DNA of 64,000 bases from Thermotogota bacterium (GTDB lineage: Bacteria; Thermotogota; Thermotogae; Thermotogales; DSM-5069). A model generated the notes under the pieces. The model did no database searches. It saw nothing but the letters and a program-made list of their open reading frames with translations, and was not told the origin of the DNA. Positions 2,009 through 18,879 of this stretch are shown in pieces; within the stretch, counting starts at the first letter, position 1, and every line of letters starts with the position of its first letter. The DNA is taken from positions 1-64,000 of the forward strand of contig JAKPGA010000017.1 in assembly GCA_029551145.1 (NCBI GenBank), written 5' to 3'. The translations under genes were made by a program, and so were the position numbers.

Positions 2009-2890
2009 TCAGGTACACCTCTGGAGAACTTCACACAATACATTCTCTTCTTTATTCACGTCGATGCATGTGACTTTGAGCTCTTTTTTGAGTGCATCAA
2101 CCACTTCAGATATGTCTATCTTCGAGAGTTGGTATCCTTCGACACGCCGTTCGGGATAACATGGATTAACCGTGACACAAAGCAACTTAGGCTTTCTCTT
2201 CACGGCAATGTCTAATTTCTCCAACTGTTCTTCGAGTTTTCTGTAATTGTCTGCTAAGATCAGGTGAATTGGCGATTCCAACAGCAAAGGCTTACCCAAA
2301 TAAGATTGAAGTTTTTCAACACTGATTACACCTGACAAAGATACCCTGTCTTTACCGTCTTGTTCTGGCAACATAAAGGCTTTAACCATCAATCTGGCTT
2401 CGACAATAAGCTCGCTCAAGTTAGTTGTTCTTGCAGCTCCTGTAGCGATGATGACGTAATCCGCATACTGAAAAGGAACCATTCTGTTTATAGCTCCGTC
2501 AATTACCAACACATCTATCGAATAACTTCCAAGTCTTTTCATAACCTCAAAGAGGTCATCACTCGAATTAGGACCGACAAGGACAGCTGTACCGAGTTCT
2601 TTAACCCTGTAAACACATATCCTTCCCATAGGAGTTCTGAGGGACAGTTTCTCTATCAGCTCCAATTTCGCTGTCGAATGACGTGCAGCTTGTTCGCTCG
2701 TTATCACAAGCGTACCCTCGTCGACCACAACTTTTGGTTTGGGCAGACCTGTGACATGATCAAGATCCTCACCGTCAAAGCCGATACTGGTTATCGCGAT
2801 CTTCTTATCGTTCAGACACTTCAAAACAGAATTCAGAGCTGTGGTCTTACCTGTGTTCTTGGCAGTTCCAAGAATTCCTATAGTCAGCAT
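2009..2890 (-). CDS. KamB-like P-loop ATPase, probable B12-aminomutase reactivase subunit
   Basis: A 293-aa P-loop protein. The Walker A motif is GTAKNTGKTT (residues 8-17). It is followed by IAITSIGFDGEDLDHVTG, KPKVVVDEGT and TPMGRICVYR, and DVLVIDGAINR (about 150) fits a Walker B-like strand. This series matches what I remember of KamB, the reactivase-associated protein of lysine 5,6-aminomutase (recall, not a search). The ATG overlaps the stop of the mutase gene, so the two are coupled. Role inferred: ATP-driven release of damaged cobalamin from, or loading onto, the mutase. The last ~100 residues carry several cysteines and match nothing I recognise. It is the last gene of the long minus-strand run. 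Confidence 0.65.
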   Translation of the reverse strand: MLTIGILGTAKNTGKTTALNSVLKCLNDKKIAITSIGFDGEDLDHVTGLPKPKVVVDEGTLVITSEQAARHSTAKLELIEKLSLRTPMGRICVYRVKELGTAVLVGPNSSDDLFEVMKRLGSYSIDVLVIDGAINRMVPFQYADYVIIATGAARTTNLSELIVEARLMVKAFMLPEQDGKDRVSLSGVISVEKLQSYLGKPLLLESPIHLILADNYRKLEEQLEKLDIAVKRKPKLLCVTVNPCYPERRVEGYQLSKIDISEVVDALKKELKVTCIDVNKEENVLCEVLQRCT

Positions 2891-4662
2891 TTTTTCACCG
2901 TTCCTCTACCTGCTCTGCCAGGATTTGCACCTTCTTCTTTACTACCAAACAAACCTTCATACAGAGAGGCTACAAAATCACCACGGTCTGCAACTTTTTT
3001 GAGGGTCTGATATATTCCATCTTTTATGGACTTGGCATATTCATAGGCTTGTTTTGTTGGCTCTATCTTTGTCTTTCCAAAAAATCTGAATGCGTCAGCG
3101 ATGGCTCTGAGGCTGTCGATTCTTGCAGAGGTCGTTATTGCCCCTCTTGCATATGCTTCATCTGTTGAGGAAACAGTTATTGCGTCAAGTTCAAGAGACT
3201 TTCCCAAAGCTGCATGAAGTGCTGTAGTCATGGCTGATTGTACCCTATCCTCGGTATGAGTCATAAAACCAATGGGCTCACCGGGCCATATTGGAGCATC
3301 GATGATCTCCCTCAGCGCAAGTATCTTACCGACATTGTAATCCACATAATTGTCTTCCATATATTTGTTTATAATAGCATCTGGAGAATAACAGAACAGA
3401 GGCTTCAAAATAGGTCTGGCGCCCAGTTTCACACCAAGATATGCCACAACAATCATCCCGGCGAATGCCTTCGGCGCCGGTACACCACCAAGCTCCTCAT
3501 TGGTCGGCAGATCAAAGGGCATGTTGTACTTTGCCGCAAGTTTTATAGAGTAGAAGCCATCCACGGTTAATCTTTCTGGATCTGTTCCGCCATTGAGTGA
3601 GCCGTAAACCATGTTTATCTTTGTGAGATCGGCTCCGGCTTCATGCGCGAGCAGAACGGTTTCCGGAGTGTTTACACCTCTATGAGCACGCACGCACCAG
3701 AGTGTCGCATCGTTCAAAGCAGATTTTATGAGTTTGAGGTTTTCGAGGGTGATGATCGAACCGTCTTCTTCGTGAGCAAGAAGTCCTTCCAGAAGTCCCT
3801 CGCACCTCGCACCCCATGATGGATCAAAGTGCAGAACGCCATCTGCGCCCCACGCTTCACTGATCTTTATATGCATGGCATCCATAAACGGACAACCAGT
3901 ACCATATTGCACAAAGACAAGAGGTTTGTCGGTGGTGTGACGGAGTACTTTTGGGGCAAACGACGTTCTGTTGATCAATTCATTGAGTTTGTCAATCTCT
4001 TCCTGTGTAATCAATCTCACATGCTTAGGGACAAGTTTTTCTCTGTAATAAGATTTGACAAGATCATCGCACAGCTTTATATATTCATCCCAAAGATTCT
4101 CGCCTTTCAAGATTTTTTCTCTGATCTTTGCTCTCTCAACACCTGGGCTTGTTCTTTCACTTGCCCAATCGATTATCTGATCTGTTATCTTTTCAAGCAA
4201 CCCCAAGAATTCTTTATCTTTGATTTGATAAGTGTATTGTTGTGTGATATCCTTTTTGCTCTTTTTTATTCTCTGGGCTTCCTCAGATAACTCTTTACCT
4301 TCGACATATGCCACCACTTCTTCCCAGCGCGTCTTTTCCCCAAAACCAGCGTCATATCCCAGCTCCGCAGCAAGCTCCTTGGTTATCGCCTTGCCACCGA
4401 CGACCACCTTGCACTTTCTCCTGAGCCCAGCGGCGTCGACCAGATCTATGAATCTTCCCAGGAGCTCCGCGGCGTTGTAGCCGAGAGTTCTGCTGACCAT
4501 TATGTAATCTGGTATCTCTTTTTGACACACCTCGATGATCTCTTCCATCTTCATATCTGGTGGCAGCAAAATGGTCTGATGACCTCGTTGAGAAAACTCC
4601 CTGTTGAGCATCTTCACAGCCACATCATGAACAGGATCCAGCGGCACCAAGACTATCTTCAT
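2884..4662 (-). CDS. Cobalamin-dependent mutase: N-terminal B12 domain fused to TIM barrel
   Basis: A 592-aa protein in two parts. Residues 1-125 form a Rossmann-like B12-binding domain: LDPVHDVAVKML aligns with the DxHxxG signature of glutamate and lysine mutases, with H12 as candidate axial ligand; VVVGGKA (about 87) is the second nucleotide-loop mark. Residues ~245-545 form a TIM barrel with FVQYGTGCPFMDAMH, AWGADGVLHFDPSWG, VRAHRGVNTPE and GGVPAPKAFAG, resembling glutamate mutase E and the OraE/KamD barrels. In OraE the B12 domain is C-terminal; here it is N-terminal. The PLP lysine of OraE lies 11 residues after the axial His; here that position is Phe. The gene overlaps both its neighbours, a 76-aa protein and a KamB-like ATPase. 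Family placement is good, substrate unknown. Confidence 0.7.
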   Translation of the reverse strand: MKIVLVPLDPVHDVAVKMLNREFSQRGHQTILLPPDMKMEEIIEVCQKEIPDYIMVSRTLGYNAAELLGRFIDLVDAAGLRRKCKVVVGGKAITKELAAELGYDAGFGEKTRWEEVVAYVEGKELSEEAQRIKKSKKDITQQYTYQIKDKEFLGLLEKITDQIIDWASERTSPGVERAKIREKILKGENLWDEYIKLCDDLVKSYYREKLVPKHVRLITQEEIDKLNELINRTSFAPKVLRHTTDKPLVFVQYGTGCPFMDAMHIKISEAWGADGVLHFDPSWGARCEGLLEGLLAHEEDGSIITLENLKLIKSALNDATLWCVRAHRGVNTPETVLLAHEAGADLTKINMVYGSLNGGTDPERLTVDGFYSIKLAAKYNMPFDLPTNEELGGVPAPKAFAGMIVVAYLGVKLGARPILKPLFCYSPDAIINKYMEDNYVDYNVGKILALREIIDAPIWPGEPIGFMTHTEDRVQSAMTTALHAALGKSLELDAITVSSTDEAYARGAITTSARIDSLRAIADAFRFFGKTKIEPTKQAYEYAKSIKDGIYQTLKKVADRGDFVASLYEGLFGSKEEGANPGRAGRGTVKKC

Positions 4663-4889
4663 TTTTGATCGCCTCCATCCACCCAGCTGTATCTGTCCCC
4701 AGGTCTGTAGACGTATGCCCTCAATCTTATTCTGGCTGCAAAACCATTGTGCTCGACAAATACAACATCGACATCCTTGAAACCAAAAGACTTCATCATT
4801 TGAATCCCAAGATCTCTCGCCTGCTGCTCACTCTCTGACAACAAAGTGGTTTCAACATCCACCGCGTCTATCACGTGTTTCTCCAGCAT
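4659..4889 (-). CDS. Small protein resembling the dimerisation domain of B12 aminomutases
   Basis: A 76-aa protein whose TGA overlaps the mutase ATG. Residues 20-60 (QQARDLGIQMMKSFGF, DVDVVFVEHNG, ARIRLRAYVYR) give a helix followed by beta-strands and resemble by eye the dimerisation segment that precedes the B12 domain in OraE/KamE, where a helix ending KKMNLEEVEVI is followed by strand-rich sequence. Inference: it is a separate small subunit of the adjacent mutase, a split-off dimerisation domain rather than an OraS homologue. This comparison is from memory. No catalytic motif is visible. Confidence 0.5.
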   Translation of the reverse strand: MLEKHVIDAVDVETTLLSESEQQARDLGIQMMKSFGFKDVDVVFVEHNGFAARIRLRAYVYRPGDRYSWVDGGDQK

Positions 4890-4898
4890 AATATCACC

Positions 4899-5735
4899 TC
4901 ACTCTTTCAACGCATCGGATAGGATATACCCCTGCGCCACAATCCGCGCATCTCCTTTTAGATAAACGTGTTTCAACAAAGACGAAACCTTCTGAAACCC
5001 GATCTCCAAAGTACCGCCCTTCGCCTTGACCAAAACCGGCGGCTGAATCTTTGAGAGGACAAACGATATTGCACAGGAAGCGATTGAACCAGTCCCGCAA
5101 GCCAGAGTCTCATCTTCCACACCACGCTCATAGGTTCTTACTATCAATTCGTTCTCACCAGAGACCTTCACAAAATTCACGTTCGTACCGTTTGGAAAAA
5201 GATCAAGGCTATACCTGATCTTTCTTCCAAGATCTTTTATTAGATCGTCGCTCATCAACTCGACATCTTCTCTATAGATAACTGCGTGTGGCACGCCCAC
5301 AACTGCAAAATGAAATTCCATCTCACCAAAACCGAAATTGTGGTACTGATTGAGCCTGAAGGTCGAAAGATCAAGATCTGGAAAGTTCACCCTCACATCA
5401 TCACCAACAATTGCGGCCTCGTGTATTCCTGAGAGAGTTTCAAATCTCATCGTTTCTTTTGCCACGCCCAAAAGATAAGCAAACCTCGAAATACATCGCG
5501 CGCCATTTCCACACATTTCTCCTTCGCTTCCATCTGAGTTGAAGTATCTCATCTTGAAATCTGCCTTGTCGGAGTTTTCAAGGATCATCAGCCCATCTGC
5601 ACCTATCGATTTTCTTCTGCGGCATACCAATCTCACAAAACGGCTTATGTCAAAGCCATTCAGAATTCCATTTCTATTGTCGATCAATATGAAATCGTTG
5701 CCTGCGCCATTCATTTTCACAAACTCTATCCTCAC
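4899..5735 (-). CDS. dapF: Diaminopimelate epimerase-like protein (DapF family)
   Basis: About 278 aa, full length for DapF. It keeps the start MNGAGNDFILID, the first catalytic cysteine in MCGNGARC and the second in ETLACGTG, so cofactor-independent 1,1-proton-transfer epimerisation should be possible. GTG at 5735 is preferred over TTG at 5738 by spacing to GAGGGA. The gene sits 9 bases from the small mutase-linked gene and 17 from the Ddh-like gene, in a catabolic rather than a lysine-biosynthesis setting. Two readings: the cell's DapF making meso-diaminopimelate, or a paralogue that epimerises a diamino acid before the mutase. Family call secure, substrate not. Confidence 0.88.
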   Translation of the reverse strand: MRIEFVKMNGAGNDFILIDNRNGILNGFDISRFVRLVCRRRKSIGADGLMILENSDKADFKMRYFNSDGSEGEMCGNGARCISRFAYLLGVAKETMRFETLSGIHEAAIVGDDVRVNFPDLDLSTFRLNQYHNFGFGEMEFHFAVVGVPHAVIYREDVELMSDDLIKDLGRKIRYSLDLFPNGTNVNFVKVSGENELIVRTYERGVEDETLACGTGSIASCAISFVLSKIQPPVLVKAKGGTLEIGFQKVSSLLKHVYLKGDARIVAQGYILSDALKE

Positions 5736-5752
5736 CAAAATCCCTCACATTT

Positions 5753-6661
5753 TCAAAGCAGCCTACAAATCAACTCTTCCCTTTCTCCACAAAGAAAATC
5801 TATTACTGGTATTTCAAGCAGTGTATAACAACCAGGCCTTTGCTTTGTCGTGGCTCTCGCCGAAGCAACCATTACTTGTGCCGTTGCAGCGGGATTGTTC
5901 ACCCACATGTGAAACTCCATTCTCTGATTGCAAGCCTTGCCAGAGGTACCCTTACGTTCTATCTTCACAGAGTGTCCCATATCAACCAGTTTACTCACAT
6001 CACTCACCTGATTAATATGTAACTCATCGTGTGAGAAATAAGGATCTTCTGCGATTTTCTTTGCAACATCTGCAAAGTCATAACCTTCCTCTAACTGGAC
6101 ATAAACAAGCCTTGAATGCATCCCCATACCCTTTGGGCACGTTATTGAAACGGCATCTTTCACACCTTCGATACGTTTCACAGCCACGGTGTGCCCCATG
6201 CTCATGCCTGGCCCAAAATTTGTCCAAGTGATACCCTTGGGTGCGATCATTTCAAACAGTACTCTGACAATGGAATCAGAACCAGGATCCCAACCGGCTG
6301 AAATGATCGAAACTGCACCGTTTTCCTTTGCGATCACATCGAGATCTTTCTTCAAACGCAGTGCACCTTCCGCGCCGTGTATATCATAGGCATCAACGGT
6401 GTTTATTCCCAACTTCAGATACTGCGGGGCGATTTTTGGAACTACTCTGCTATCAATCGCCAAAATGGCTACATCGGGTTTTGGCAAATCCTCAACATTG
6501 TCAACTACAGGTATGTCTCTGAACTCCTCTTCGAGTGATTTCACCCTTTGTGGGATCTCAACTATGCCTACCAATTCCATATCCTGGGCTTGAGACACGC
6601 AATCAAAGACGGCATGTCCTACATTGCCCATGCCAACGATCGCGACTCTTATCTTCCCCAT
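5753..6661 (-). CDS. ddh: meso-Diaminopimelate dehydrogenase-like amino acid dehydrogenase
   Basis: A 302-aa NAD(P)-dependent enzyme. The Rossmann start is VAIVGMGNVGHAV, and the family marks SAGWDPGSDS, NFGPGMSMGHT and C-terminal TLLEIPV match corynebacterial Ddh segment by segment. Ddh oxidatively deaminates the D-centre of meso-DAP to L-2-amino-6-oxopimelate, or runs in reverse. Here it neighbours DapF-like and B12-mutase genes, so it may deaminate the diamino acid made by the mutase, the step done by Ord or Kdd in ornithine and lysine fermentation. That role is inference; a biosynthetic Ddh is the alternative. The start is ATG with GGAGAAC nearby. Confidence 0.8.
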   Translation of the reverse strand: MGKIRVAIVGMGNVGHAVFDCVSQAQDMELVGIVEIPQRVKSLEEEFRDIPVVDNVEDLPKPDVAILAIDSRVVPKIAPQYLKLGINTVDAYDIHGAEGALRLKKDLDVIAKENGAVSIISAGWDPGSDSIVRVLFEMIAPKGITWTNFGPGMSMGHTVAVKRIEGVKDAVSITCPKGMGMHSRLVYVQLEEGYDFADVAKKIAEDPYFSHDELHINQVSDVSKLVDMGHSVKIERKGTSGKACNQRMEFHMWVNNPAATAQVMVASARATTKQRPGCYTLLEIPVIDFLCGEREELICRLL

Positions 6662-6738: not shown

Positions 6739-8097
6739 CTACATGAGTATCATCGCTACGATCGTTGCACCTATGAAGCCCAAAATAACGGGTATGAAAT
6801 TCTTTCTTGCGATCTCCTCTGGTTTGGTCTTACAAACGGCAGCAACCGCTATCAAAGCCCACGGGACTATGGTTCCTCCACCTGTATTAACTGCTGTGAG
6901 TTGTCCAAGTGCAGCCAGAACAGAACTTTTCACCTTTGCAGCAGTGCCAAGACCTGCCGCAAGCGTTCCCATAAGCGGCAAACCAGAGAATCCTGAACCG
7001 TCAAGACCTGTTATTGCTCCAATAACAGCTTGCATTGGTGCAACTGCGAATCTGTTCAACGGCACCTTTGCCGCGAGTGCGTTACTCAGGTCAAACAGCA
7101 AAGGTTTACCGGCACTTCCGAATATCTGCGTTGCTTGACCGCCACCCATATAGAACAGAGCAGCGATGATAAAGACAGGTGCAAAGATCTTGACGCCGAA
7201 CATGAATCCTTCTCTCAGAAAGTCGACACCAACTTCCAAACCCTCTGATTTGTACTGCAATAGAGTAAAAACTAATAACAGCAAAGCTGCCGTACCACCG
7301 AGCAGTGCTGTAGCGTCACCGCCGCGCAGTTTCAAGGTGAGCATGAGTATTATGTCGACGATAAAAGCTAAGGATACCACCACAGCTTCAGCCTTTGCAA
7401 AACTACTGTGCTCTGTACTCTTGCTCTTTACAACACTTTCTCCGAACAATTCTATATCCTTTTTGGGATCGTATCCCTTGTTCGCCTTCATAGTGAAATA
7501 ATAAGTCAAAGGTATTGCGATGACTGCCCAAACGATGATCAATGGCACCATTGAGCTCATGACGGTTCCAACGGGCAATCCTGCCGCTTTTGCCGTAAGT
7601 GTAGGAGCACCTTGGATCACAAAGTCCGTTGTCAGCGACACGCCATATGCAAACATGGCTATTGCCACACCTGCTCCCAAGGGAGACAGACCAGCGCTCA
7701 CTGCGACAGGCACAAGCAGACTCCCTATTAGTGCCACAGCAGGCGTTGGCCAAATGAAGAGTGCAAGAACTGCCGTGATAATACCGACAAACCAGAACGC
7801 TGAGTTAGGTCCTTTGATGGGTTTACCAAGAGTTCTTATGAGCACCGCTGCGGCTCCGCTTTTCTCCATCTGCTTTGAAAGCGCAACCATCAACGAAATG
7901 ACCACTACGATGCCTATTAGTTCAACCGCCGCAACTACTACTGCGTTGAAGATAGACTGAATCGCTCCAAGAAAAGAGCCCGTTACTGCCCAGCCAACAC
8001 ACAAAGCACCAATGATACAGATGAGTGGTGTGTCTTTTCTGAAAAACATGGTTACAACTACTGCAATAACAAACAACAAATACAACCAGTGAGCCAA
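6739..8097 (-). CDS. Ion-coupled organic/amino acid permease (IT superfamily-like)
   Basis: About 452 aa with roughly 11-12 hydrophobic helices and two similar halves; GAPTLTAKAAGLP and GLDGSGFSGLPLMG are candidate re-entrant substrate loops. Length and pattern resemble GntP/CitMHS-type members of the ion transporter superfamily, but I cannot name the family. The start is TTG at 8097 by reading frame; the nearest good Shine-Dalgarno (AGGAGGTGA) is about 25 bases upstream, so the start is uncertain. Position directly before the Ddh/DapF/mutase genes suggests uptake of their substrate or cation/product exchange. Confidence 0.7.
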   Translation of the reverse strand: MAHWLYLLFVIAVVVTMFFRKDTPLICIIGALCVGWAVTGSFLGAIQSIFNAVVVAAVELIGIVVVISLMVALSKQMEKSGAAAVLIRTLGKPIKGPNSAFWFVGIITAVLALFIWPTPAVALIGSLLVPVAVSAGLSPLGAGVAIAMFAYGVSLTTDFVIQGAPTLTAKAAGLPVGTVMSSMVPLIIVWAVIAIPLTYYFTMKANKGYDPKKDIELFGESVVKSKSTEHSSFAKAEAVVVSLAFIVDIILMLTLKLRGGDATALLGGTAALLLLVFTLLQYKSEGLEVGVDFLREGFMFGVKIFAPVFIIAALFYMGGGQATQIFGSAGKPLLFDLSNALAAKVPLNRFAVAPMQAVIGAITGLDGSGFSGLPLMGTLAAGLGTAAKVKSSVLAALGQLTAVNTGGGTIVPWALIAVAAVCKTKPEEIARKNFIPVILGFIGATIVAMILM

Positions 8098-8130: not shown

Positions 8131-9423
8131 TCAAAGAAGTTTGGTATCAAAGATTGATTTCAAACCAGCTTTTTTCACTCTTTCTTTTATGACTTTGACA
8201 TCTGTTGTGTACAAATTCTTTTCCTTCATTCTCTTGAAATATATCGAACCTGAGAAGGTGTACTTGTACTGTCGGCCCTCTTCTTTTTTCATCTCTCCTA
8301 TGACGTGGTTCACAAAATCTCCAACGGCTATTTCATCTGGAAATCTGAGTAATTTCTCCCCTATGACCTGTCTGACTGCGTTATGTCCAGCCAAGGTCCC
8401 CGACACAATCGCCTCTGTGTGTCCTACCATTGCACCCGCCTTTTCACCGGCACAGAAAAGATTATCAACGGGACCTATCGCTTGAAGTTCAGGCGTGCAG
8501 TTGGCAAAACCAAAGTAGCGCATCGAGTTTCCTTTTCCACCAGCAATTGGATCTTCATACCTCGCTCTTTCCATACCTGGGACCTTTCTGAGTCTCTCAA
8601 GTGGGAAGAACGGTGTCATTAACTTAACTGGACCGGTATCGAGCAAAACCAAATTCTCAATGAATTCCTCAAGTGCGTACTGTTGGCATGCCTTCATACT
8701 CAGAAGCTTTTCTTCCTCACGTACTTCCAACGGTACTGGAACGAGCGCGGAGCCCTTTTCTTCGAGTTCTTTTACGATCTGCGGGTCGATCGAGTCTTTG
8801 CAGAGTTTGCACGATCCACTCATCGCACCTATACTGCTGCCGTCAGGCTTTTTACCGATCCATTCTTCAACTCCCACCTTAGTCGTTATACTTATCCTTG
8901 GTCCAAAGCTGTGACATCTTAGAATACACATCGCACAACCATTACCATACTTGGTGCAGTTCGCTGGGACCGCTGAAGTTCCTGTTGCGTCGACAAAAGC
9001 GTCTGCCTGAATTGGTTCAAGTCCTTCAACAACTACACAAGAAACCTTTCTGCCTTCCTTCGCGACATCGATAACCCTTGCGGTGGTGAAAATCTTCACA
9101 CCGAGTTTCATCAGGTACTCCTTAACGGCTGGTTCGATCCTGTAGACATTGTACAGACTTGCATGCTTATGGCCTGGAAACTCGACATTCGTGTGAGTAA
9201 CGCAGTTGTCCATCACCGAGAAGATATCCGCTCCCATCTCGAGCATTTCTTCGGCTGCCGTGAATCTGCCGTTGTTTCTGAAGATCCCTCCAACTAAACC
9301 TGTACCAAGTAGCATGTCTGCCCTTTCAAGCAGGATAACCTCGGCGCCAGCCTTTCGGGCAGCTGCGGCTGCGGCGCAGCCACCCCAACCTCCTCCAACA
9401 ACGACTATCTTTGGGACGCGCAT
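8131..9423 (-). CDS. FAD-dependent oxidoreductase (FAD_oxidored type)
   Basis: A 430-aa flavoprotein with N-terminal dinucleotide fold VVVGGGWGGCAAAAAARKAG and acidic end VILLERAD, then GLVGGIFRNNGRF. DAFVDATGTSAVPANC carries the ATG motif before a cysteine-rich stretch (CAMCILRCHSFG and GSCKLCKDS) that could bind a cluster or contact the adjacent [2Fe-2S] protein. Near the C terminus NLFCAGEKAGAMVGHTEAI is the second FAD-binding segment. ATG directly abuts the TGA of the BFD-like gene. Probably one subunit of a multi-part amino-acid dehydrogenase; substrate unknown. Confidence 0.8.
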   Translation of the reverse strand: MRVPKIVVVGGGWGGCAAAAAARKAGAEVILLERADMLLGTGLVGGIFRNNGRFTAAEEMLEMGADIFSVMDNCVTHTNVEFPGHKHASLYNVYRIEPAVKEYLMKLGVKIFTTARVIDVAKEGRKVSCVVVEGLEPIQADAFVDATGTSAVPANCTKYGNGCAMCILRCHSFGPRISITTKVGVEEWIGKKPDGSSIGAMSGSCKLCKDSIDPQIVKELEEKGSALVPVPLEVREEEKLLSMKACQQYALEEFIENLVLLDTGPVKLMTPFFPLERLRKVPGMERARYEDPIAGGKGNSMRYFGFANCTPELQAIGPVDNLFCAGEKAGAMVGHTEAIVSGTLAGHNAVRQVIGEKLLRFPDEIAVGDFVNHVIGEMKKEEGRQYKYTFSGSIYFKRMKEKNLYTTDVKVIKERVKKAGLKSIFDTKLL

Positions 9424-9708
9424 TCAATCACTCCTTTCTTGAGATACCTTTTGCTTCAGTAAGCCCATCGGTATTGGTTTGACAGGTGGTCTGAATCTGC
9501 CCGGGTTGAGTTTTTCAAAAGGAGTCTTGGTGATCTGGGATATCTCACGCAGGATGATTTCTCTACAACCACGCCCTTGACATGGTCCCATACCCACTCG
9601 TAACAGTCTTTTCAATTCACCGATGGTGGTGTGCCCAGATCTTATAGCATCTCTGATCTCTTTCAGAGTTACTTCCTCGCAACGGCAAACGATGATTTCT
9701 TCATCCAT
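9424..9708 (-). CDS. BFD-like [2Fe-2S] protein of amino-acid dehydrogenase
   Basis: A 94-aa protein with the BFD/NirB-type [2Fe-2S] pattern: CRCEEVTLKEIRDAI (cysteines at 8 and 10) and GPCQGRGC (cysteines at about 42 and 47). In HcnB and the alpha subunits of opine and proline dehydrogenases this domain sits at the C-terminus of the flavoprotein; here it is a separate gene. Its start overlaps the end of the large flavoprotein gene and its stop touches the next oxidoreductase gene, so it likely passes electrons between them. Confidence 0.85.
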   Translation of the reverse strand: MDEEIIVCRCEEVTLKEIRDAIRSGHTTIGELKRLLRVGMGPCQGRGCREIILREISQITKTPFEKLNPGRFRPPVKPIPMGLLKQKVSQERSD

Positions 9709-11350
9709 GTTTCATCACCCTTATTGCTCTGATTTGCATTGCAAGTTCCTTTGGAACAGTCACATGGACAACGACAGTTTTGTCCTTTCTCGGTTCTTGA
9801 ACACGAATAACCTTGCCAATTGCTACGACTTCCCCTTTCCTGTTAAGACATTCGACTTCTTCTCCTATATTCGGTCTTGGAAACATTTCATAGGGCAATT
9901 TGATAGCTGCCTTTTCATCTTCCGTCAGATCGATCACAAAACAAGCAAGTCCGGGGCAGGATGCAACGCAAAGCGCACATCCGGAACACTTTGAATAGTC
10001 AATCTTTGGTAGATCATTGATGTTCTTAAAAGGTAGGATCGCTCCTGTTGGACAGCTGGTGTGGCATGGATCACAGGGTATCGACTGAGGGCACTCGATT
10101 ACCACAAGACCACCTTTTTTTCTGCTCCACAGTTCGAGTGGAGGCGTAATCGATTCGACCATCTTCTCTGGCAGTACACCACTGCAAAAGTCTTGATCTT
10201 GTATAACCTGAACCTGACTCTTACTCTGCGCACAGTACTGTATATTCATTGATGAATCCTCACTGCTTTTTACAAGTACTTTTTTAACACCATTTCTGAT
10301 CTTTGCTGCGGTCTCCCCACCGCGCAAAAGATCAAGCTCCTGCCAGTACTCACCGAGTTTATTTTTGAAAGAAGAATCATCAACTCTGCCGAGCGAATGA
10401 GCTACAGATAACCCTGCAATCTTTCCTTCGATCATTGCGCTCGATGCTTCTTCGATACCAGAAGCATCGCCAGCAACCCAGATATCTGGATGAGTTGTAC
10501 GCATCGTCTCATCTCTTTTTGGAACATATCCAGAAAGCTCTGGAACATAATTCATCTCACAGCCCGCCTGCCACAACAGCTCGCAGGTGGGGCTTAGACC
10601 AACTGCCAGGCAGATAACATCACAATCTATTCTTTTTTCCTCACCATACCACTCGCCTTTTTCATTTACCGCTTGAATTATGGCGCCTTCAACCCATGAG
10701 CTACCAAGAGCTTTTTTTATCGTATGCCTTAGATATATCGGTACACCCAAACGTCGAATCTTTGCCGCATGTACCCAGTAGCCTCCTATTCTCGGTGCAT
10801 ATTCAACAATACCAGCCACATCTACACCAGCCTGTAGAAGCTGATAGGTGACAATCAATCCAATATTACCCGCCCCGATCATCAAAACACGTTTTCCGGG
10901 TACTACACCGTATACATTCATCAACGTTTGGACAGCACCAGCTCCATAAACACCGGGAAGATCATTACCCACAAACGGTAAGAGTTTTTCCAGCGCGCCG
11001 GTTGCTATGACTATCTTTTTAGGATTCACAGAGAAAAAATCTTGCTCTGATTTCATACAGGTGACGGTCTTTTCATCTGCGTAATAGCCAACTGCAGTCG
11101 TGTTCAAAAAAACCTCTATATTATCTTTTTTGTTCATTATTTCCTGCGTTAGCAATCTCGCTATCTCAATTCCACGAGTACCTGCGAATTCTTTACTTGA
11201 GCCGAAGAATTTGTGTGTTTGCTTTATAAGCTGTCCACCTAAAGATAGCGATTCATCGACTATGACAACCTTGCATCCAAAAGAAGAGGCTTCCAATGCA
11301 GCACACAGCCCTGCTGGACCACCACCAATGACCAGAAGATCAGTGTTCAC
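9701..11350 (-). CDS. HcnB/SoxA-like NAD(FAD) dehydrogenase subunit with ferredoxin domain
   Basis: About 549 aa. Residues ~5-330 form a two-dinucleotide oxidoreductase: FAD motif LLVIGGGPAGLCAALEA, GGQLIKQTH, ATGALEK, and a second fold VLMIGAGNIGLIV; WVAGDASGIEEAS closes the FAD site. Near the C-terminus lie two ferredoxin-type clusters (CxxxxCxxCxxxCP in CPQSIPCDPCHTSCP, and CSGCALCVASCP), then a small beta domain. GTG at 11350 is chosen because AAGGAGGTG lies 8 bases upstream; the longer ATG frame start at 11380 overlaps the previous gene more. With the 2Fe-2S and BFD-like proteins it makes an HcnAB-like dehydrogenase. Substrate probably an amino or imino acid. Confidence 0.85.
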   Translation of the reverse strand: MNTDLLVIGGGPAGLCAALEASSFGCKVVIVDESLSLGGQLIKQTHKFFGSSKEFAGTRGIEIARLLTQEIMNKKDNIEVFLNTTAVGYYADEKTVTCMKSEQDFFSVNPKKIVIATGALEKLLPFVGNDLPGVYGAGAVQTLMNVYGVVPGKRVLMIGAGNIGLIVTYQLLQAGVDVAGIVEYAPRIGGYWVHAAKIRRLGVPIYLRHTIKKALGSSWVEGAIIQAVNEKGEWYGEEKRIDCDVICLAVGLSPTCELLWQAGCEMNYVPELSGYVPKRDETMRTTHPDIWVAGDASGIEEASSAMIEGKIAGLSVAHSLGRVDDSSFKNKLGEYWQELDLLRGGETAAKIRNGVKKVLVKSSEDSSMNIQYCAQSKSQVQVIQDQDFCSGVLPEKMVESITPPLELWSRKKGGLVVIECPQSIPCDPCHTSCPTGAILPFKNINDLPKIDYSKCSGCALCVASCPGLACFVIDLTEDEKAAIKLPYEMFPRPNIGEEVECLNRKGEVVAIGKVIRVQEPRKDKTVVVHVTVPKELAMQIRAIRVMKHG

Positions 11351-11672
11351 CGTCTTGCACCTCCTTGTGAAAAGTTCCATGACCGCGTTGGGTTTCTATA
11401 ACCATCCCTTCCTCTAACGGAGTGATGCAAGAGCGGACATTTGGGATCCCATTCACCACCACAAAACAAGAAGAGCATTTTCCTATAGCGCAGAAAAAAC
11501 CTCTTGGTCTTTTGTACTTTTCAGTGTAGCTCAAGATCCTTACACCATTTGCGTGCAAAGCGGCTGCTATGGGTTCTCCCTCGAAACCTTCCATTTCTTG
11601 GCCATCGAAGATGAACTTGACCTTTTTTCCATGTTGATACTGAAGTATCGGATGATGTTCGATCAATTGCAT
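11340..11672 (-). CDS. HcnA-like [2Fe-2S] ferredoxin subunit
   Basis: A ~110-aa plant-type ferredoxin domain as in HcnA or the N-terminus of sarcosine oxidase alpha. VKFIFDGQEMEGFEGEPIAAAL is the family's beta-grasp opening, and the cluster cysteines are in FFCAIGKCSSCFV and NVRSC. ATG at 11672 is preferred over GTG at 11681 because GAGGTGA lies at the right distance. The stop overlaps the start of the flavoprotein gene, which supports a physical complex. Confidence 0.85.
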   Translation of the reverse strand: MQLIEHHPILQYQHGKKVKFIFDGQEMEGFEGEPIAAALHANGVRILSYTEKYKRPRGFFCAIGKCSSCFVVVNGIPNVRSCITPLEEGMVIETQRGHGTFHKEVQDGEH

Positions 11673-11677
11673 CTTTA

Positions 11678-12397
11678 TCACCTCAGATTGATAAGGATAT
11701 CTGAATCTGCAGCAAAGTAGACAAAGTTTATTAAACTCACGATATCAAAGACAGGTAAACATGTGGCTGATTTGATATCTCTTGAAAAAGGTGGCATGTT
11801 GGTGCATTCCAGAACAATTGCACCGATCGAAGGATCTGAAGATAGAATTTTGGCCTTTTCTATCATTTCTCTTTTAGCTAATTCCACATCGATTTCCCAC
11901 TTGTCATATAATAGAGCCTTACCAAATTCTGTATCTTCTATTCCAACTTTGACAACATTCTTTCCAAAGGCACCCACACTTTCAAAGTGTCCTTCACTGA
12001 GAGCTTTACTGTTTGCGGTTATTATTCCAACCTTGCGGGATGGTCCAATCATCTTTTGGATCAGTGGAACCAAGATCAGAGCTGAGCTGACAAAAGGTAC
12101 CCTCAAAGCTGATGCGACTCTGTCCTGAAAGAGTGATAGAAAACCACAAGAGGTTGTCACCAGTCTGACTCCATTGTTCTGGAGTTCCAACGCTGTATCT
12201 ATGAATTTCTGTAAGAAAGGCTCTGGATCATTCACAATGATTTTTTGTGCGCTTGTACCTTTTACAGTTTTGTACAGCACAGGGAAGTCCCAGGTCAAAG
12301 CGTTTCCTATATCACCAGGCAATCTTGGAAAGTGTGTCTCGAGCATTATTACACCAACTTTGAAACCGTAGATGTTTTTCCCGCCTTTGGCGATCAA
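11678..12397 (-). CDS. Aspartate/glutamate racemase superfamily protein
   Basis: About 239 aa with both catalytic cysteines of the Asp/Glu/hydantoin racemase superfamily in context: VTTSCGFLSLF and IVLECTNMPPF. The spacing fits a two-domain pseudo-symmetric racemase. Such enzymes invert an alpha-carbon without PLP. TTG at 12397 is preferred because GGGAGG lies 9 bases upstream, although an ATG at 12427 is in frame and overlaps the TRAP gene. Placed among amino-acid dehydrogenase and transport genes, it may interconvert D and L forms of the imported compound. Confidence 0.7.
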   Translation of the reverse strand: MIAKGGKNIYGFKVGVIMLETHFPRLPGDIGNALTWDFPVLYKTVKGTSAQKIIVNDPEPFLQKFIDTALELQNNGVRLVTTSCGFLSLFQDRVASALRVPFVSSALILVPLIQKMIGPSRKVGIITANSKALSEGHFESVGAFGKNVVKVGIEDTEFGKALLYDKWEIDVELAKREMIEKAKILSSDPSIGAIVLECTNMPPFSRDIKSATCLPVFDIVSLINFVYFAADSDILINLR

Positions 12398-12416
12398 AAC
12401 CTGAGACCTCCCATGG

Positions 12417-14303
12417 TCATGCCTCATTTTTCTTTAGAACGAACTTGTTCAAAAGCATGTACAAAACTCCAGCGATGAAAACAACTATTGCAAGGATTTC
12501 CTTTGGGAACTTTGGTGTTGCTGTAGCCCATATCGATAGAGCAAGAATGACAAATGTTAGAACCCTTTCATAAACCTTCAATTTCCTTGTGAAGTAACCC
12601 GAGATCAAAATAGACAGCAGATAACTGATCAAAGTCATTAAAACTATGATTGTCAGGATCTGCCAAACTGAACCTCTCATCAACAAGGCGTCGTTGTAAA
12701 TAAAAATATAACCGACTATATAACCAGTCAGACCTAACTTCCAACTCTCAAACCCAACCTTCATAGGATCTGCCTGTGCAATCGAGGCACCACAGTAAGA
12801 TGCGACACACACGGGTGGTGTAACCTCTGACAGTTGTGCAAAATACAGTACAAACAGATGGGCTTTTAGTACATCCACGCCCATCTTCAGAAGTGCAGGT
12901 GCAGCTATTGTCACTGCAATTATGTAGGCGGGAGTCGTCGGCAGTCCCATTCCCAATATCAAGCATGTCACCATCACCAAGATCAGTGCGAGTAGCAATC
13001 TTCCACCTGCGAGGCTTGTTATAATCGACGCAAGTCCCAATCCAAGACCGGTGTAAGTCAACACGCTAACAACTATCCCAGCGCCTGCACAAGCAAGAGC
13101 CACAATGATCATATTCTTGCCACTGGTTTCCAATGTTGACCATATTCTTTTGGGCGTCATCATTGTTTCTTTCTTGAAGAAACTGATAGCTATTGAGATC
13201 CAGATCGAATAATACGCAGCCATGAAAGGCGAATAACCTTTTACCAGGAAGTACACCAAACCAATGGCTGGCGCGAGCAAATAGGTTTCTTTGAGAATCT
13301 TTTTCCATGATGGCAGTTCTTCCTTGGGCAAACCTTTTAGGCCATCTCTCAACGCAATGAGATGAACAGTGATACCAAGAGCGACATAGTAGAAGATTGC
13401 GCCAAGCAATGCAGCCACACAAATTTTCACATAAGGGATATTCGTCAACTCTGCCATTATGAAGGCCGCAGCACCCATCACAGGAGGCATGAATATCCCA
13501 CCAGTAGAGGCGACAGCTTCAATCGCGCCGGCAAGCTCGGGCTTGTAACCGAGTTTTTTCATCATCGGTATGGTGAAACTTCCAGTCGCATAAACATTGC
13601 TGGCTGCTATACCGCTTATCGAGCCAAATAAGCCGCTACCCACAACGGCTATCTTTGCGGGACCACCGGGTCCTCTTCCGGCAATACGTGCCGCAACCAT
13701 CGTCAGGTAGTTGCCAACACCGGTTGATTCCAAGAAGGCGCCAAAGATCACAAACAAAGCGACCACCGTTGCTGATATTCCCGTGATACTACCATAGATT
13801 CCACTGTCTGTTATCAAATAAAACATCTCCACAAATCTACCAAGTTTCATCGGCTTGTTGTAGAAAATACCTGGCAAATAGGGTGCGATATACACATAGC
13901 CCATCAGAACTATCAATAGAACTGCCATTGCAGGAACAACAGCGCGTCGTATCGCTTCCAAGAGTAAGATTATGATGATTATTCCAAGAACTATTTGGGT
14001 GGTCGTCAACGGATCAACCCGTTCAAATCTCATGTTCAAGGCATTGTTGTTCACAATCAAATAAACAGAAGGAATGACCGAGAGAACAGCCAAAATTACA
14101 TCAAGAACGGTGAATCTATCCTTCGGTGACTTCTTGGTCGCGGGATACAAAATAAAAGCCATAGGTAACAGCAAAAGTAAGTGAGCTCCTCTTTGTAATC
14201 TTGGTTGTAATATCCCCACCGTTGCGGTATACAGGTGAAACAGGGCGGTGGCGACAAGCCACACACCCACAAACCATCTCTGCCAACCCTTCAGTTCTCT
14301 CAT
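12417..14303 (-). CDS. TRAP transporter fused permease (DctQM, TAXI type)
   Basis: A 628-aa fused permease with about 16-18 hydrophobic segments: a short DctQ-like N-terminus followed by a DctM-like channel. Conserved DctM marks include FGSISGIAASNVYATGSFTIP, STGGIFMPPVMGAAAF and LGMGLPTTPAYI. It pairs with the TAXI receptor gene 16 bases upstream in the same direction. Such systems import glutamate or other carboxylates in characterised cases; the catabolic context suggests an amino acid here. Confidence 0.9.
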   Translation of the reverse strand: MRELKGWQRWFVGVWLVATALFHLYTATVGILQPRLQRGAHLLLLLPMAFILYPATKKSPKDRFTVLDVILAVLSVIPSVYLIVNNNALNMRFERVDPLTTTQIVLGIIIIILLLEAIRRAVVPAMAVLLIVLMGYVYIAPYLPGIFYNKPMKLGRFVEMFYLITDSGIYGSITGISATVVALFVIFGAFLESTGVGNYLTMVAARIAGRGPGGPAKIAVVGSGLFGSISGIAASNVYATGSFTIPMMKKLGYKPELAGAIEAVASTGGIFMPPVMGAAAFIMAELTNIPYVKICVAALLGAIFYYVALGITVHLIALRDGLKGLPKEELPSWKKILKETYLLAPAIGLVYFLVKGYSPFMAAYYSIWISIAISFFKKETMMTPKRIWSTLETSGKNMIIVALACAGAGIVVSVLTYTGLGLGLASIITSLAGGRLLLALILVMVTCLILGMGLPTTPAYIIAVTIAAPALLKMGVDVLKAHLFVLYFAQLSEVTPPVCVASYCGASIAQADPMKVGFESWKLGLTGYIVGYIFIYNDALLMRGSVWQILTIIVLMTLISYLLSILISGYFTRKLKVYERVLTFVILALSIWATATPKFPKEILAIVVFIAGVLYMLLNKFVLKKNEA

Positions 14304-14319
14304 TTGTCTGCCAACTCCC

Positions 14320-15327
14320 TCATTTTAGATACCCAGCTTCTCTGTAGTATTTTTCTGCTCCTGGATGCAATGGTACTGCAACGTTCTTTGCCCCATTCTC
14401 TGGTACGAAGGTCTTGTTGGCAGGATGAACATTCCACAGTTCCTGTAAATTCTCGCACAGTATCTTTGTGATAGTATAAGCGACTATTTCAGGTACATCT
14501 GCATTGATCAACAATTCACCGGCTGTAACAACAGCGGGAACAGCGGTATCTTGACCCTGATATGTGCCGGATGGAATTACACACAATCCAGATGCACGTG
14601 GAACCGTTCCCAACTCTTTGTTCATAGCATCAATACACTCATCTGAAACAGCGAGTAAGGTGGACTTCCTTGAGATGAACATCTCTGTGATTGCCGATGC
14701 CGGGAGTGAAAGATGTGTGATCACAAAGTCCACATGACGATCTTTGTAAAGACTGGTCATATCAGCGTAGGTGGCATGGAAGTATTCTCCACCAGCCTTT
14801 TTGATGTCTTCGAGTTTTACACCATAGAATCCAAGAATTTTCTCAACTATCGGTAGATCAGATGTGCCCTTCATCGGAACTGCGATTCTCACAGATTTGC
14901 CTGATTTGATCATATCAGCCAGCTCTTTAACAGTAGTCATTCCTTTATCAGCACTCGCGACGAAGTGAATGTGATAATAACCAAAGTAACCACCGAGCGA
15001 TCTCACCTTAGGATTTGGTTTTTCATACAGTGGTGGTACACCCAAAAGCGCCATCTTGTCAACAAAAGTGATGCCCCAACCAAGATTCGCGTCGCCAGAA
15101 GATACTTGAACAGGATTGACCACGCCTCCACCTGGGACGACTTTTATCGAGATCTTTGGCTCTTTTTGATTAATCAGTGCGGCTATTGCCCCTGCCTGTG
15201 CGTACCATCCACCACCGACGCCGCCAGCAACCCATGTCAAGGTCACTGGTTTCAATTCCTCTGCGATACCAACTGTGACTAAAACAATACTTAAAACGAA
15301 AATCAGAACGAAATTAGCCCTTTTCAT
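14320..15327 (-). CDS. TAXI family TRAP solute receptor
   Basis: A 335-aa secreted binding protein. A signal segment (RANFVLIFVLSIVLVTVGIAE) precedes TLTWVAGGVGGGWYAQAGAIA, the glycine-rich start typical of TAXI receptors, and VVPGGGVVNPVQVSSGDANLGWG with the ligand site. The C-terminal NVAVPLHPGAEKYYREAGYLK is also characteristic. ATG at 15327 follows GGGAGGG by 8 bases. It feeds the fused permease downstream. Confidence 0.93.
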   Translation of the reverse strand: MKRANFVLIFVLSIVLVTVGIAEELKPVTLTWVAGGVGGGWYAQAGAIAALINQKEPKISIKVVPGGGVVNPVQVSSGDANLGWGITFVDKMALLGVPPLYEKPNPKVRSLGGYFGYYHIHFVASADKGMTTVKELADMIKSGKSVRIAVPMKGTSDLPIVEKILGFYGVKLEDIKKAGGEYFHATYADMTSLYKDRHVDFVITHLSLPASAITEMFISRKSTLLAVSDECIDAMNKELGTVPRASGLCVIPSGTYQGQDTAVPAVVTAGELLINADVPEIVAYTITKILCENLQELWNVHPANKTFVPENGAKNVAVPLHPGAEKYYREAGYLK

Positions 15328-15369
15328 CAATGAATCCCTCCCTTAGGATGAAAATCTCAAAAAGATTCT

Positions 15370-16560
15370 TTACCTCTTGACAGTTTCTGATATTCTTTGG
15401 CGGCGAAAACGAGATGGACTGATCTCGCTGATTTCAAAGACTGGTTTTCTACCGCAGACCAAATCCGCGATTAACTTCCCTGTTATCGGCGCAAGTGCTA
15501 TTCCATCTCCTTCGTGTCCTGTTGCAATAAAGAAACCAGGATTAGATGGATCTTCGCCGATGACATATTTACCATCTTCACAAGCGGGTCTCAAACCGGC
15601 GAACGATCTTATGATTCGCACCTTGCTGAACACCGGGAATAGCTCGGTAGCCCTGTTTGTTATAGCTTTGAAGGCCTCATAGGTAGTACTCTTGTTGAAT
15701 CCTACATATTCTCTTGTGCTGCCTATCAAGTAATTGCCGCTGTGAGTTCTTGACATTGCAAAACCAAGGCCAAGTTTTTTTGAAACTCCGTCGCGCTCAA
15801 AATTGGACAGATGCTTCGAAATAATGTAATTGGCGTCCCAGGCATCTGTCTGACCTATCTCTTCTATCGGCTCTGTCACGACTATTTGGCCGCGCTTTGG
15901 ACGTATTGGCAACTCAAGCCCGACAAGAGATGAAACTTGTGCAGACCAAACTCCAGCGGCGTTCACTACAATTTGTGAATTGTACGACTGACCCGTGCAG
16001 GTTCTCACCTCCCAGGAATATGGTTTTCTTATGATTTCAACGACTTCTTCATGCCTCATGAACTTGACATTCAGTTTGGTACATGCTTGGAAAAGTGCGA
16101 ACAAAACCCGAAATGGATTGATTTGAGAGTCATCCGGTGAATAAGTTGAAGCTATCACGTGATCACTGACCCACGGTTGTCGTTTCTTGATCTCCCTTTT
16201 GTCCAAAATTTCAACGTTTAGGCCAATCGATTTTTGTCTTTTAACGAAATCTTCCATCACAGGTATGTGCTCAGGTTTATCGATCAGAATCATGCCACCG
16301 CGCGTCGCAAATTCGACATCCTCTGGCAGTTCTTTCTGCCACTCGCGGTATATTTCAAGGCTTGTTATGGCAAGCTTCAATGGGAGTCCAGGTGCCTTGG
16401 ACTGCAGAAGAATCATGTGATCACACGCACCAGAGGTACCGCTACCAATATCGTCACGCTCAAGTACAAGAACACTTTTGTTGGATTTCGCAAGTTGATA
16501 CGCACAAGAAAGACCTATTATTCCTCCACCGATGACGATGCAATCATAGCCATTATGCAC
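15370..16560 (-). CDS. FAD-dependent amino acid oxidase/dehydrogenase (DadA/SoxB/HcnC-like)
   Basis: A 396-aa DAO-family flavoprotein. CIVIGGGIIGLSCAYQLAK (residues 7-25) and VLVLERDDIGSGTSG bind FAD, VVNAAGVWSAQVSSL is the second FAD motif, and the C-terminal ATGHEGDGIALAPITGKLIA is typical of sarcosine oxidase beta/HcnC. The start is GTG at 16560 with AAGGAGGA upstream. It is the likely catalytic subunit that accepts the amino acid, with electrons passing to the HcnAB-like proteins encoded 4-6 kb downstream in the same run. Whether it uses D-amino acids, N-methyl amino acids or proline cannot be read from sequence. Confidence 0.85.
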   Translation of the reverse strand: MHNGYDCIVIGGGIIGLSCAYQLAKSNKSVLVLERDDIGSGTSGACDHMILLQSKAPGLPLKLAITSLEIYREWQKELPEDVEFATRGGMILIDKPEHIPVMEDFVKRQKSIGLNVEILDKREIKKRQPWVSDHVIASTYSPDDSQINPFRVLFALFQACTKLNVKFMRHEEVVEIIRKPYSWEVRTCTGQSYNSQIVVNAAGVWSAQVSSLVGLELPIRPKRGQIVVTEPIEEIGQTDAWDANYIISKHLSNFERDGVSKKLGLGFAMSRTHSGNYLIGSTREYVGFNKSTTYEAFKAITNRATELFPVFSKVRIIRSFAGLRPACEDGKYVIGEDPSNPGFFIATGHEGDGIALAPITGKLIADLVCGRKPVFEISEISPSRFRRQRISETVKR

Positions 16561-16579: not shown

Positions 16580-18034
16580 TCAAATCAAACCAGAGTATTT
16601 CGCCACGATCTCAATCAGCTTCACAAGTCCTCTCACAGCAAGTCTTGCCTTGTCCTCGATTATGTCACCGTTTTCATCGGTTGTACCAAGACCAAGTGAG
16701 ATGAATATATTTGCATCGTATGCAATTGTCTGTATGATTCCCATGGCATCCGTTCCTGACTGCAGTATATTAGTACCTGCGTACATATCTTCAATTGAGA
16801 ATATTGGGAATGGAACACCTTTTTCCCAGCAATCGTCATAATTCACTTCAACAGCTCCAGAGTTGTAACTCTTGGAAATCTTGAATATGTGTTTTATTCT
16901 GCTGTCGAGCTTGGAGAATTCTTCGACGGTTATTTCGTAAAGTCTGTCAACACCTGCTTTGTATTTGTCTGCCTTCTGTCTGAGTGCCTTGAGGGCAGCA
17001 ATTGCACCGGCCAATGATTCCTTTCCTGGGTCGAAGGTCACGTAAGCAGCTTTACCATAAGAAGACCATGTACCACTTCTATCACCGTGTGTTCCCATCG
17101 CTCGTCTGATAGGAACCATCACATCTTCACGTCCAATTATCAATCCGCAGGTGGGTGCTCCCGCCGCTTTGTCCATGCTGTACGTCATGACCCAGGCTCC
17201 GGTTTTCCTTGGATCTGTCCCTATGAATGGGACACCCCAAGCGTTGTCAACGATGTAAGGAACGTTGTAGTGATTTGCAAGTTCACCGATCTTCTTCTGA
17301 AGTATTGGTGCACCATCTTTATCCTTTTCTCCATAGCCATAACCAACGGTGTCATAACCAAGCGATGAAAATCCACCGAGCGTATCTGCATATCTCTCTG
17401 CGTATTCTTTCAGTCTGTTCGCCGTGCCCTCAGCGTCTACACCACTGAGTAAAATAACCGGGTGATACTTGATTCCGTGAACAGGATACCTTCCTCCGAC
17501 CATTGGGACTATAACAGTATCGACATTTTCCAGTCTCTTTCCGTAAAAGCCTAGTTCTCCAGCGGTGCAACCTCTGTCTGCGAATATATCTTTGTATTGA
17601 GGTGGGATAGGTCTCCCATAACCACCGTGGTGATGCAGGTGTTTCTCGTAAGGAATGATGTATCTGCTTCTGTACTTTTCGCCTCTGCCCGTGAACGGTG
17701 GAGAAACAAGGACATCGAAACTCAGCCAGAGCGCCGCTTCACAAGTGCTGACAAGCAATGCATCGTAGTCATCCCCGTAATAATCCTTGACGATGTCTCT
17801 GATCTCATCCGCGAATACCTTGTTTGGAATAACCTCTCTTGCGACTTTGCTGATAGCCTCGTCGACCTCTTTTGTGATCAAACCGTGGCACCCAGATATA
17901 GCACCCGTCAAGCCAAACTTACCGCGCCATTCCTGTGGTATACCTATTTCGTCGGCTGCCTTTCTCGCTTCTTCAAAGATCTTGGGCATTGATTGCTTAA
18001 GATGCCTGTAAAGATGATACTTGTTTTTGAACAT
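16580..18034 (-). CDS. PLP-dependent fold-type I enzyme, function unknown
   Basis: A 484-aa aminotransferase-fold protein. PYIVDNAWGVPFIG holds the Asp that pairs with the pyridine nitrogen, and VMTYSMDKAAGAPT holds the probable Schiff-base lysine (about residue 288). CEAALWLSFDVLVSPP fits the cofactor phosphate region. The general look is SelA/SepSecS-like rather than a typical aminotransferase. It lies 16 bases after a 143-aa conserved gene and before the amino-acid oxidase. Inference: a lyase, transferase or thiolase step, perhaps standing in for the PLP-dependent 2-amino-4-oxopentanoate thiolase of ornithine fermentation. Family certain, reaction unknown. Confidence 0.75.
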   Translation of the reverse strand: MFKNKYHLYRHLKQSMPKIFEEARKAADEIGIPQEWRGKFGLTGAISGCHGLITKEVDEAISKVAREVIPNKVFADEIRDIVKDYYGDDYDALLVSTCEAALWLSFDVLVSPPFTGRGEKYRSRYIIPYEKHLHHHGGYGRPIPPQYKDIFADRGCTAGELGFYGKRLENVDTVIVPMVGGRYPVHGIKYHPVILLSGVDAEGTANRLKEYAERYADTLGGFSSLGYDTVGYGYGEKDKDGAPILQKKIGELANHYNVPYIVDNAWGVPFIGTDPRKTGAWVMTYSMDKAAGAPTCGLIIGREDVMVPIRRAMGTHGDRSGTWSSYGKAAYVTFDPGKESLAGAIAALKALRQKADKYKAGVDRLYEITVEEFSKLDSRIKHIFKISKSYNSGAVEVNYDDCWEKGVPFPIFSIEDMYAGTNILQSGTDAMGIIQTIAYDANIFISLGLGTTDENGDIIEDKARLAVRGLVKLIEIVAKYSGLI

Positions 18035-18872: not shown

Positions 18873-18879
18873 TCCTCCT

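Follow-up and report, generated by a model that had tools for sequence, protein, structure and literature searches.

A rearranged relative of the B12-dependent lysine and ornithine aminomutases in Thermotogota and its possible role in diaminopimelate degradation

The best described relatives of the gene cluster analysed here are two aminomutases that depend on adenosylcobalamin (AdoCbl), lysine 5,6-aminomutase (KamDE, with its partner KamB) and ornithine 4,5-aminomutase (OraSE), as well as, more distantly, glutamate mutase (MutES). The cluster is located in a 64,000-nucleotide stretch of DNA (hereafter, the window) from a thermophilic Thermotogota bacterium (GenBank assembly GCA_029551145.1, contig JAKPGA010000017.1, positions 1 to 64,000), which is contig 2 of a 2.1 Mb genome whose relatives are labelled Pseudothermotoga. 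KamDE and OraSE employ the same modules, namely, a TIM barrel, a B12-binding domain and a dimerisation domain; in OraE, these follow one another in the order barrel, dimerisation domain, B12 domain, with OraS as a separate chain. In lysine 5,6-aminomutase, Lys144 of the B12 domain holds pyridoxal phosphate (PLP) as an imine, and the cofactor is contacted by Ser238, Tyr263, Asn299, Arg184, Arg268 and Ser189 (PMC3958899). Glutamate mutase, which operates without PLP, grips its dicarboxylate substrate by three arginines (PMC10947579).

An earlier note on this DNA proposed that five genes at positions 2009-6661 encode a B12-dependent diamino-acid pathway parallel to ornithine and lysine fermentation, with a DapF-like racemase, a rearranged mutase and a Ddh-like dehydrogenase. 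Open reading frame (ORF) calls and profile scores confirm the coordinates and the families of these genes:

2009-2890, minus strand: KamB-like ATPase, 293 amino acids, with the P-loop GTAKNTGKTT; adjoins the mutase in nearly all loci (NF052386, E=2.1e-57, 194.6 bits against a cut-off of 210)
2884-4662, minus strand: mutase of 592 amino acids (B12-binding PF02310, E=1.8e-10, 41 bits against a cut-off of 32; PF16552, E=0.0038; AlphaFold2, Foldseek and hhalign)
4659-4889, minus strand: free-standing dimerisation domain of the KamE/OraE type, 76 amino acids (hhalign and fold matches)
4899-5738, minus strand: DapF-like epimerase of a cluster-linked clade (TIGR00652, 241.5 bits against a cut-off of 114.65; Cys motifs; tree)
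5753-6661, minus strand: meso-diaminopimelate (meso-DAP) dehydrogenase (Ddh) of the Symbiobacterium type (TIGR01921, 296.8 bits against a cut-off of 180.6; 54% identity to the Symbiobacterium enzyme, StDAPDH)

The five ORFs are tightly packed, with gaps of 14 bp between Ddh and DapF and 9 bp between DapF and the 76-amino-acid ORF, followed by overlaps of 4 bp (76- and 592-amino-acid ORFs) and 7 bp (592-amino-acid ORF and KamB). The best reading of the 592- and 76-amino-acid pair is that it represents a third family on the B12-dependent aminomutase fold, a rearranged relative of KamDE and OraSE. For the operon as a whole, we give about an even chance to a catabolic role in which this new AdoCbl-mutase family participates in the degradation of diaminopimelate (DAP) from murein. 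Among the substrates listed in the earlier note, namely, ornithine, lysine, DAP or another diamino acid, DAP is now favoured.

The large protein consists of a B12-binding Rossmann domain (residues ~1-122) with the axial His12, which is invariant across 13 mutase sequences, an OraS-like helical stretch (residues ~145-178, the extent of a weak match to the OraS-domain family PF16552), and a TIM barrel (residues ~245-500). An AlphaFold2 model built with 12 homologues has a mean pLDDT of 82, and in a Foldseek search with this model, KamD ranks first (1xrs_A, E=1.5e-15; 8t0v_A; 9q1a_C), followed by OraE (4.6e-11) and MutE (1cb7_B, E=2e-10). Likewise, hhalign connects the B12 half to KamE (E=4e-19) and the barrel half to KamD (E=2e-6). 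The 76-amino-acid chain aligns with the N-terminal dimerisation domain of KamE (hhalign, E=2.8e-6), and its beta-alpha-beta-beta model (pLDDT 83) retrieves only OraE and KamE structures among the first eight PDB matches, six of them at 1.2-1.5 Å root-mean-square deviation; the E-values of these matches are weak because the chain is short. That this ORF exists by chance is ruled out by the fold match and by conservation in six relatives, at 29-86% identity. These alignments and fold matches of the two proteins thus reveal the complete set of aminomutase modules in a new order, where the dimerisation domain is a separate chain and the B12, OraS-like and barrel domains are fused, and the rearrangement proposed in the earlier note is borne out.

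The mutase scores 52 bits against the KamE cut-off of 280 and 25 bits against the OraSE cut-off of 800. Assignment to MutE by sequence was rejected, there being no profile match to Met_asp_mut_E or to the NCBIfam MutE family; unlike MutES, the new system also includes a dimerisation domain and KamB. The KamB-like ATPase, whose L037 orthologue reaches 231.9 bits, is presumed to be the reactivase or chaperone of the mutase, and the anticipated partnership is supported by the recurrence of the gene order 76-amino-acid protein, 592-amino-acid protein, KamB in four lineages (Thermotogota, Atribacteria, Firmicutes-labelled metagenome-assembled genomes (MAGs) and Ignavibacterium).

The departure from KamDE and OraSE is most pronounced in the PLP site. 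Eleven positions downstream of the axial histidine, all 11 KamE sequences of this phylum carry the PLP lysine, whereas all 12 mutases carry Phe or Leu, and the loop in this region is ~9 residues shorter than in KamE; the counterpart of the OraSE lysine, Lys629, is missing as well. In the profile alignment, Arg184 corresponds to Asp280, Ser238 to Arg328, Arg268 to Gly358 and Asn299 to Glu389, and Ser189 falls in a gap, so that Tyr263 (Tyr353 here) is the sole PLP contact retained among those mapped in this distant alignment. With the PLP lysine absent and most PLP contacts replaced, the label 'aminomutase' is therefore doubtful and we do not place the mutase inside the KamDE/OraSE family. The barrel mouth has new invariant residues, among them Arg286, Arg325, His327, Arg328, Lys348 and Arg364; the four arginines sit at barrel-loop positions in the model, where they would be compatible with a dicarboxylate substrate. 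The arginine claw of MutE (R66/R100/R149; PMC10947579) could not be aligned to the mutase residue by residue. The barrel-mouth arginines and the lack of the PLP lysine are compatible with carbon-skeleton chemistry of the MutES kind and may point to a PLP-free reaction on a dicarboxylate. The mutase thus probably does not use PLP in the manner of KamDE and OraSE and, by analogy with glutamate mutase, may catalyse a carbon rearrangement.

All ten residues that contact meso-DAP in the Symbiobacterium enzyme (PMC7424261) are retained in the window Ddh. The two enzymes differ in the NADP site, where the Arg35-Arg36-Lys37 stretch that accommodates the 2'-phosphate is replaced by Glu-Ile-Pro, and in the operon context, which is catabolic rather than biosynthetic here. 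The first of these arginine positions is acidic in nine of the ten cluster Ddhs, and this substitution suggests NAD+ use and the catabolic direction.

Among 103 Thermotogota genomes, Ddh is found in exactly the nine that carry the mutase and in not one of the remaining 94 (naive chance probability 4e-13, the nine genomes being related), even though it is not adjacent to the mutase in at least five of the nine. In four of these (G057, G058, G059 and G061), Ddh heads an operon, away from the mutase, that encodes a family-5 solute-binding protein (SBP5), DppB, DppC, an NlpC/P60-SH3 peptidase similar to YkfC, and Dpp ATPases (L076:5925-15716, L078:2092-8596, L079:7031-13582 and L082:1587-8168). 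These operons, which lie outside the window, resemble the Bacillus-type Dpp/YkfC murein-peptide operons in all these components and differ from them in that Ddh is added. For the G057 and G058 peptidases, the best PDB matches are dipeptidyl-peptidase VI (3pvq) and 3h41, both of which cleave murein peptides adjacent to the diamino acid. Two further observations concern the surroundings of Ddh: a D-aminoacylase-like amidohydrolase gene follows the Ddh operon of G057, and in G065 (L033:7626-8880), a sodium:dicarboxylate symporter gene, broken into two frames, lies between Ddh and DapF.

Because all the meso-DAP contacts are kept and the gene, in four genomes, is located apart from the mutase in an operon for murein-peptide uptake, Ddh probably acts on DAP itself and not, as Ord and Kdd do, on the product of the mutase, the role assigned to it in the earlier note. 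Identification of Ddh as Ord or Kdd was rejected, the score with the Ord family NF040740 being 26.2 bits against a cut-off of 400. The accompanying claim that the third step is non-homologous to that of the known pathways is too strong, given the weak similarity between the Rossmann halves of Ddh and Ord (26 bits, E=5e-6).

These features bear on the pathway as originally conceived, in which the 592- and 76-amino-acid pair would be a PLP- and B12-dependent aminomutase acting on ornithine, lysine, DAP or another diamino acid, with DapF as the racemase and Ddh processing the product in the manner of Ord or Kdd. The nearest folds and profiles are indeed KamDE and OraSE, KamB is a shared partner, the PLP-stacking tyrosine is preserved, and the invariant Lys348 could stand in for the PLP lysine. 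Against this, apart from the loss of the canonical lysine and of most of the phosphate and ring contacts, Ddh retains its DAP contacts and occurs in murein-peptide operons, DapF or Ddh is absent from some mutase loci, and the genome already encodes canonical KamD and KamE elsewhere (L071:5529-7837, contig 52). The parallel with the known pathways is accordingly weakened, and we regard such an aminomutase as unlikely. Beside the canonical KamD and KamE genes at L071, neither KamB nor any other lysine-fermentation gene was recognised, and KamDE may share the KamB of the mutase cluster.

The mutase is present in nine of the 103 Thermotogota genomes, which represent one family and three genera. 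Outside this phylum, the sample comprises five mutase genomes: an Atribacteria genome, UBA3567, a Thermoanaerobacteraceae MAG (GB_MAG15) and two Ignavibacterium, with UBA3567 and GB_MAG15 being the Firmicutes-labelled MAGs. Across the neighbourhoods, the steady set consists of the 76-amino-acid protein, the mutase, KamB, a PLP enzyme, RidA and a DUF6917 protein, mostly joined by an FAD protein as well as by a permease or antiporter. The inspected neighbourhoods of the two Ignavibacterium loci showed neither RidA nor the FAD protein. The PLP enzyme is encoded in all nine mutase-bearing Thermotogota, in one further genome that is 71% complete, and in five of the five mutase genomes elsewhere. 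The idea that it is OrtB was discarded, no NCBIfam match to OrtB having been found.

DapF and Ddh are frequent at mutase clusters, and their functional link to the mutase, as originally proposed, is supported. Nevertheless, neither enzyme is obligatory, since GB_MAG15, with its two mutase clusters, encodes no Ddh and no DapF other than a biosynthetic one. One of the observations that the earlier note named as refuting its proposal, conserved neighbourhoods without DapF/Ddh, is therefore partly made here. In the second GB_MAG15 cluster (L121:3436-12228, contig 3), the genes for RidA and the PLP enzyme separate the mutase from KamB, with two CitM-like permease genes around the cluster.

The existence of a core without DapF and Ddh is also an argument for a different substrate, for example, a D-, branched or short dicarboxylic amino acid rather than DAP, with DapF and Ddh recruited as a broad-specificity racemase and a D-amino-acid dehydrogenase, respectively. 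Near some clusters, there are DauR-like regulators (which are associated with D-arginine), TRAP and Liv-type transporters and D-amino-acid modules, all in line with this possibility. The ten intact DAP contacts of Ddh, the preservation in DapF of both catalytic Cys motifs (CGNG and ACGTG) and of the distal ERG motif, and the YkfC/Dpp operon context speak for DAP instead, making this alternative rather improbable in our estimation.

The known use of DAP is its decarboxylation to lysine by LysA, and no DAP catabolic route or DAP mutase was found in a limited literature search. DapB is absent in seven of the nine Thermotogota carriers of the mutase (G000, G058, G060-G062, G064 and G065), including the single-contig genomes G058 and G064, and LysA is retained. 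DAP therefore cannot be made in these bacteria by the known routes, and in these seven, DapF and Ddh are not lysine-biosynthesis genes; an assignment of the two to lysine biosynthesis is rejected for most carriers on this ground. The loss of dapB with lysA kept suggests that DAP is scavenged for lysine. The DapA profile alone is uninformative, since DapA-like paralogues remain, and a high-scoring dapA next to dapB is confined to the carriers G057 and G059 and to G063, a genome of the same genus without the mutase, in which DapB is retained and DapF is very different.

DapF itself is a single-copy gene in each of the nine mutase-bearing Thermotogota, in partial agreement with the reservation in the earlier note that DapF and Ddh might be the only lysine and peptidoglycan enzymes of the genome, and at odds with it in that seven of these genomes lack DapB. 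Atribacteria and UBA3567, however, have two DapFs each, one in a dapA/dapB/lysA or dapL context and the other with Ddh, and in the tree, the cluster DapFs group apart from the biosynthetic copies that these genomes encode, although some inner forks are weak. In the cluster clade, the spacing between the distal ERG motif and the second Cys also exceeds that of canonical DapF by one residue, as it does in the Ignavibacterium biosynthetic copies. Thus, although the Thermotogota carriers have no other DapF and keep LysA, and G057 and G059 still have DapA and DapB, the view that DapF and Ddh are ordinary lysine or peptidoglycan enzymes, or serve DAP-to-lysine salvage ending in LysA, as chance neighbours of an unrelated B12-mutase operon is highly improbable given the seven genomes without DapB, the confinement of Ddh to mutase genomes within Thermotogota, the separate biosynthetic DapF in Atribacteria and UBA3567, and the recurrence of the link in Atribacteria, Thermotogota and Ignavibacterium.

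Under the DAP degradation scenario, murein peptides would be imported and cut, with the release of DAP, whose LL- and meso-forms DapF would equilibrate. Ddh would oxidatively deaminate the D-centre of meso-DAP, probably with NAD+, and the mutase would rearrange DAP or a DAP-derived dicarboxylate or deamination product. AdoCbl probably binds the mutase base-off via His12; the 5'-deoxyadenosyl radical would then abstract a hydrogen from the substrate held in the barrel, and KamB would reload or reactivate the enzyme. If the mutase acted on DAP as glutamate mutase does on its substrate, a glycyl shift would yield a methyl-branched diamino-adipate; if it acted like KamDE, the product would be 2,5-diaminopimelate. 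Subsequently, the PLP enzyme might carry out an elimination or cleavage that gives an imine or enamine for hydrolysis by RidA, and the DUF6917 and FAD proteins could complete the route together with these two enzymes. The most specific version of this scenario, in which the carbon skeleton of DAP is rearranged by a PLP-independent AdoCbl mutase with its origin in the lysine/ornithine aminomutase fold, as the basis of a dedicated fermentation of cell-wall DAP by bacteria that have given up DAP synthesis, is possible but doubtful.

Several considerations weigh against the DAP scenario. The PLP residues were mapped through a profile alignment at 21% identity (probability 89%), and the PLP lysine could have been relocated to barrel strand 4, where Lys348 is invariant. 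The GB_MAG15 clusters described above have neither Ddh nor an additional DapF, and the true substrate may be something that DapF and Ddh merely feed. The Thermotogota carriers all belong to one family, such that the co-occurrence there may reflect one or two events. Moreover, enzymes of the StDAPDH type accept other D-amino acids too, and YkfC also frees peptides of the lysine type.

Six more cluster genes lie outside positions 2009-6661:

6739-8097, minus strand: permease, weakly CitMHS-like (PF03600, 1.1e-5, below the cut-off), conserved beside the mutase
8131-9423, minus strand: GidA-like FAD protein (PF01134, 3.5e-28)
16580-18034, minus strand: PLP-enzyme-like protein, 484 amino acids, fold-type-I-like (weak matches to class V aminotransferase and SelA-like families)
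18051-18482, minus strand: DUF6917 protein, assigned by position and by the sequence of relatives (PF21891 in relatives)
18489-18980, minus strand: RidA-type imine/enamine deaminase, ORF MHVRTISTDQAPKAIGPYSQG..., with a RidA-like gene at the equivalent place in relatives; the true start is probably internal
18880-19551, minus strand: YheO/DauR-like regulator with PAS_6 and HTH_22 domains (PF08348, 2.5e-45; PF13309, 2.3e-19)

The permease gene neighbours the cluster also in other Thermotogota and at the second GB_MAG15 locus, and copies of the FAD protein, 57-61% identical, adjoin the mutase or the PLP enzyme in UBA3567 and GB_MAG15. Homologues of the DUF6917 protein occupy the equivalent place in G065, G057, Atribacteria, UBA3567, Ignavibacterium and GB_MAG15, and a 45% identical copy of the regulator is encoded within the Atribacteria cluster.

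In this genus, a 7-kb insertion interrupts the cluster, which is contiguous in the other genera of the family. The inserted module (9424-16560, minus strand) encodes oxidoreductases of the DAO type and of a soxA-like type, a 2Fe-2S protein, a BFD-like protein, an Asp/Glu racemase and a TRAP transporter, and it separates the cluster genes in this genus alone (L122 and L074, compared with L077, L080 and L081, where it is absent at that place). Elsewhere in the window (22891-23697, plus strand), a single ORF fuses a holo-ACP synthase (ACPS) domain with HPPK (FolK), two unrelated cofactor-pathway enzymes.

On the best reading, the operon encodes a new family of AdoCbl mutases that would function in a probably undescribed pathway. 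Few B12-dependent mutases are known, and every one of them has opened a fermentation pathway. A mutase with reshuffled domains and a dismantled PLP site would be a natural test of which parts of KamDE and OraSE control the radical and which serve PLP chemistry. DAP is abundant in the cell walls of dead bacteria, and a route for its fermentation, if real, would be relevant to the way in which anaerobic communities of thermophiles turn over carbon and nitrogen.

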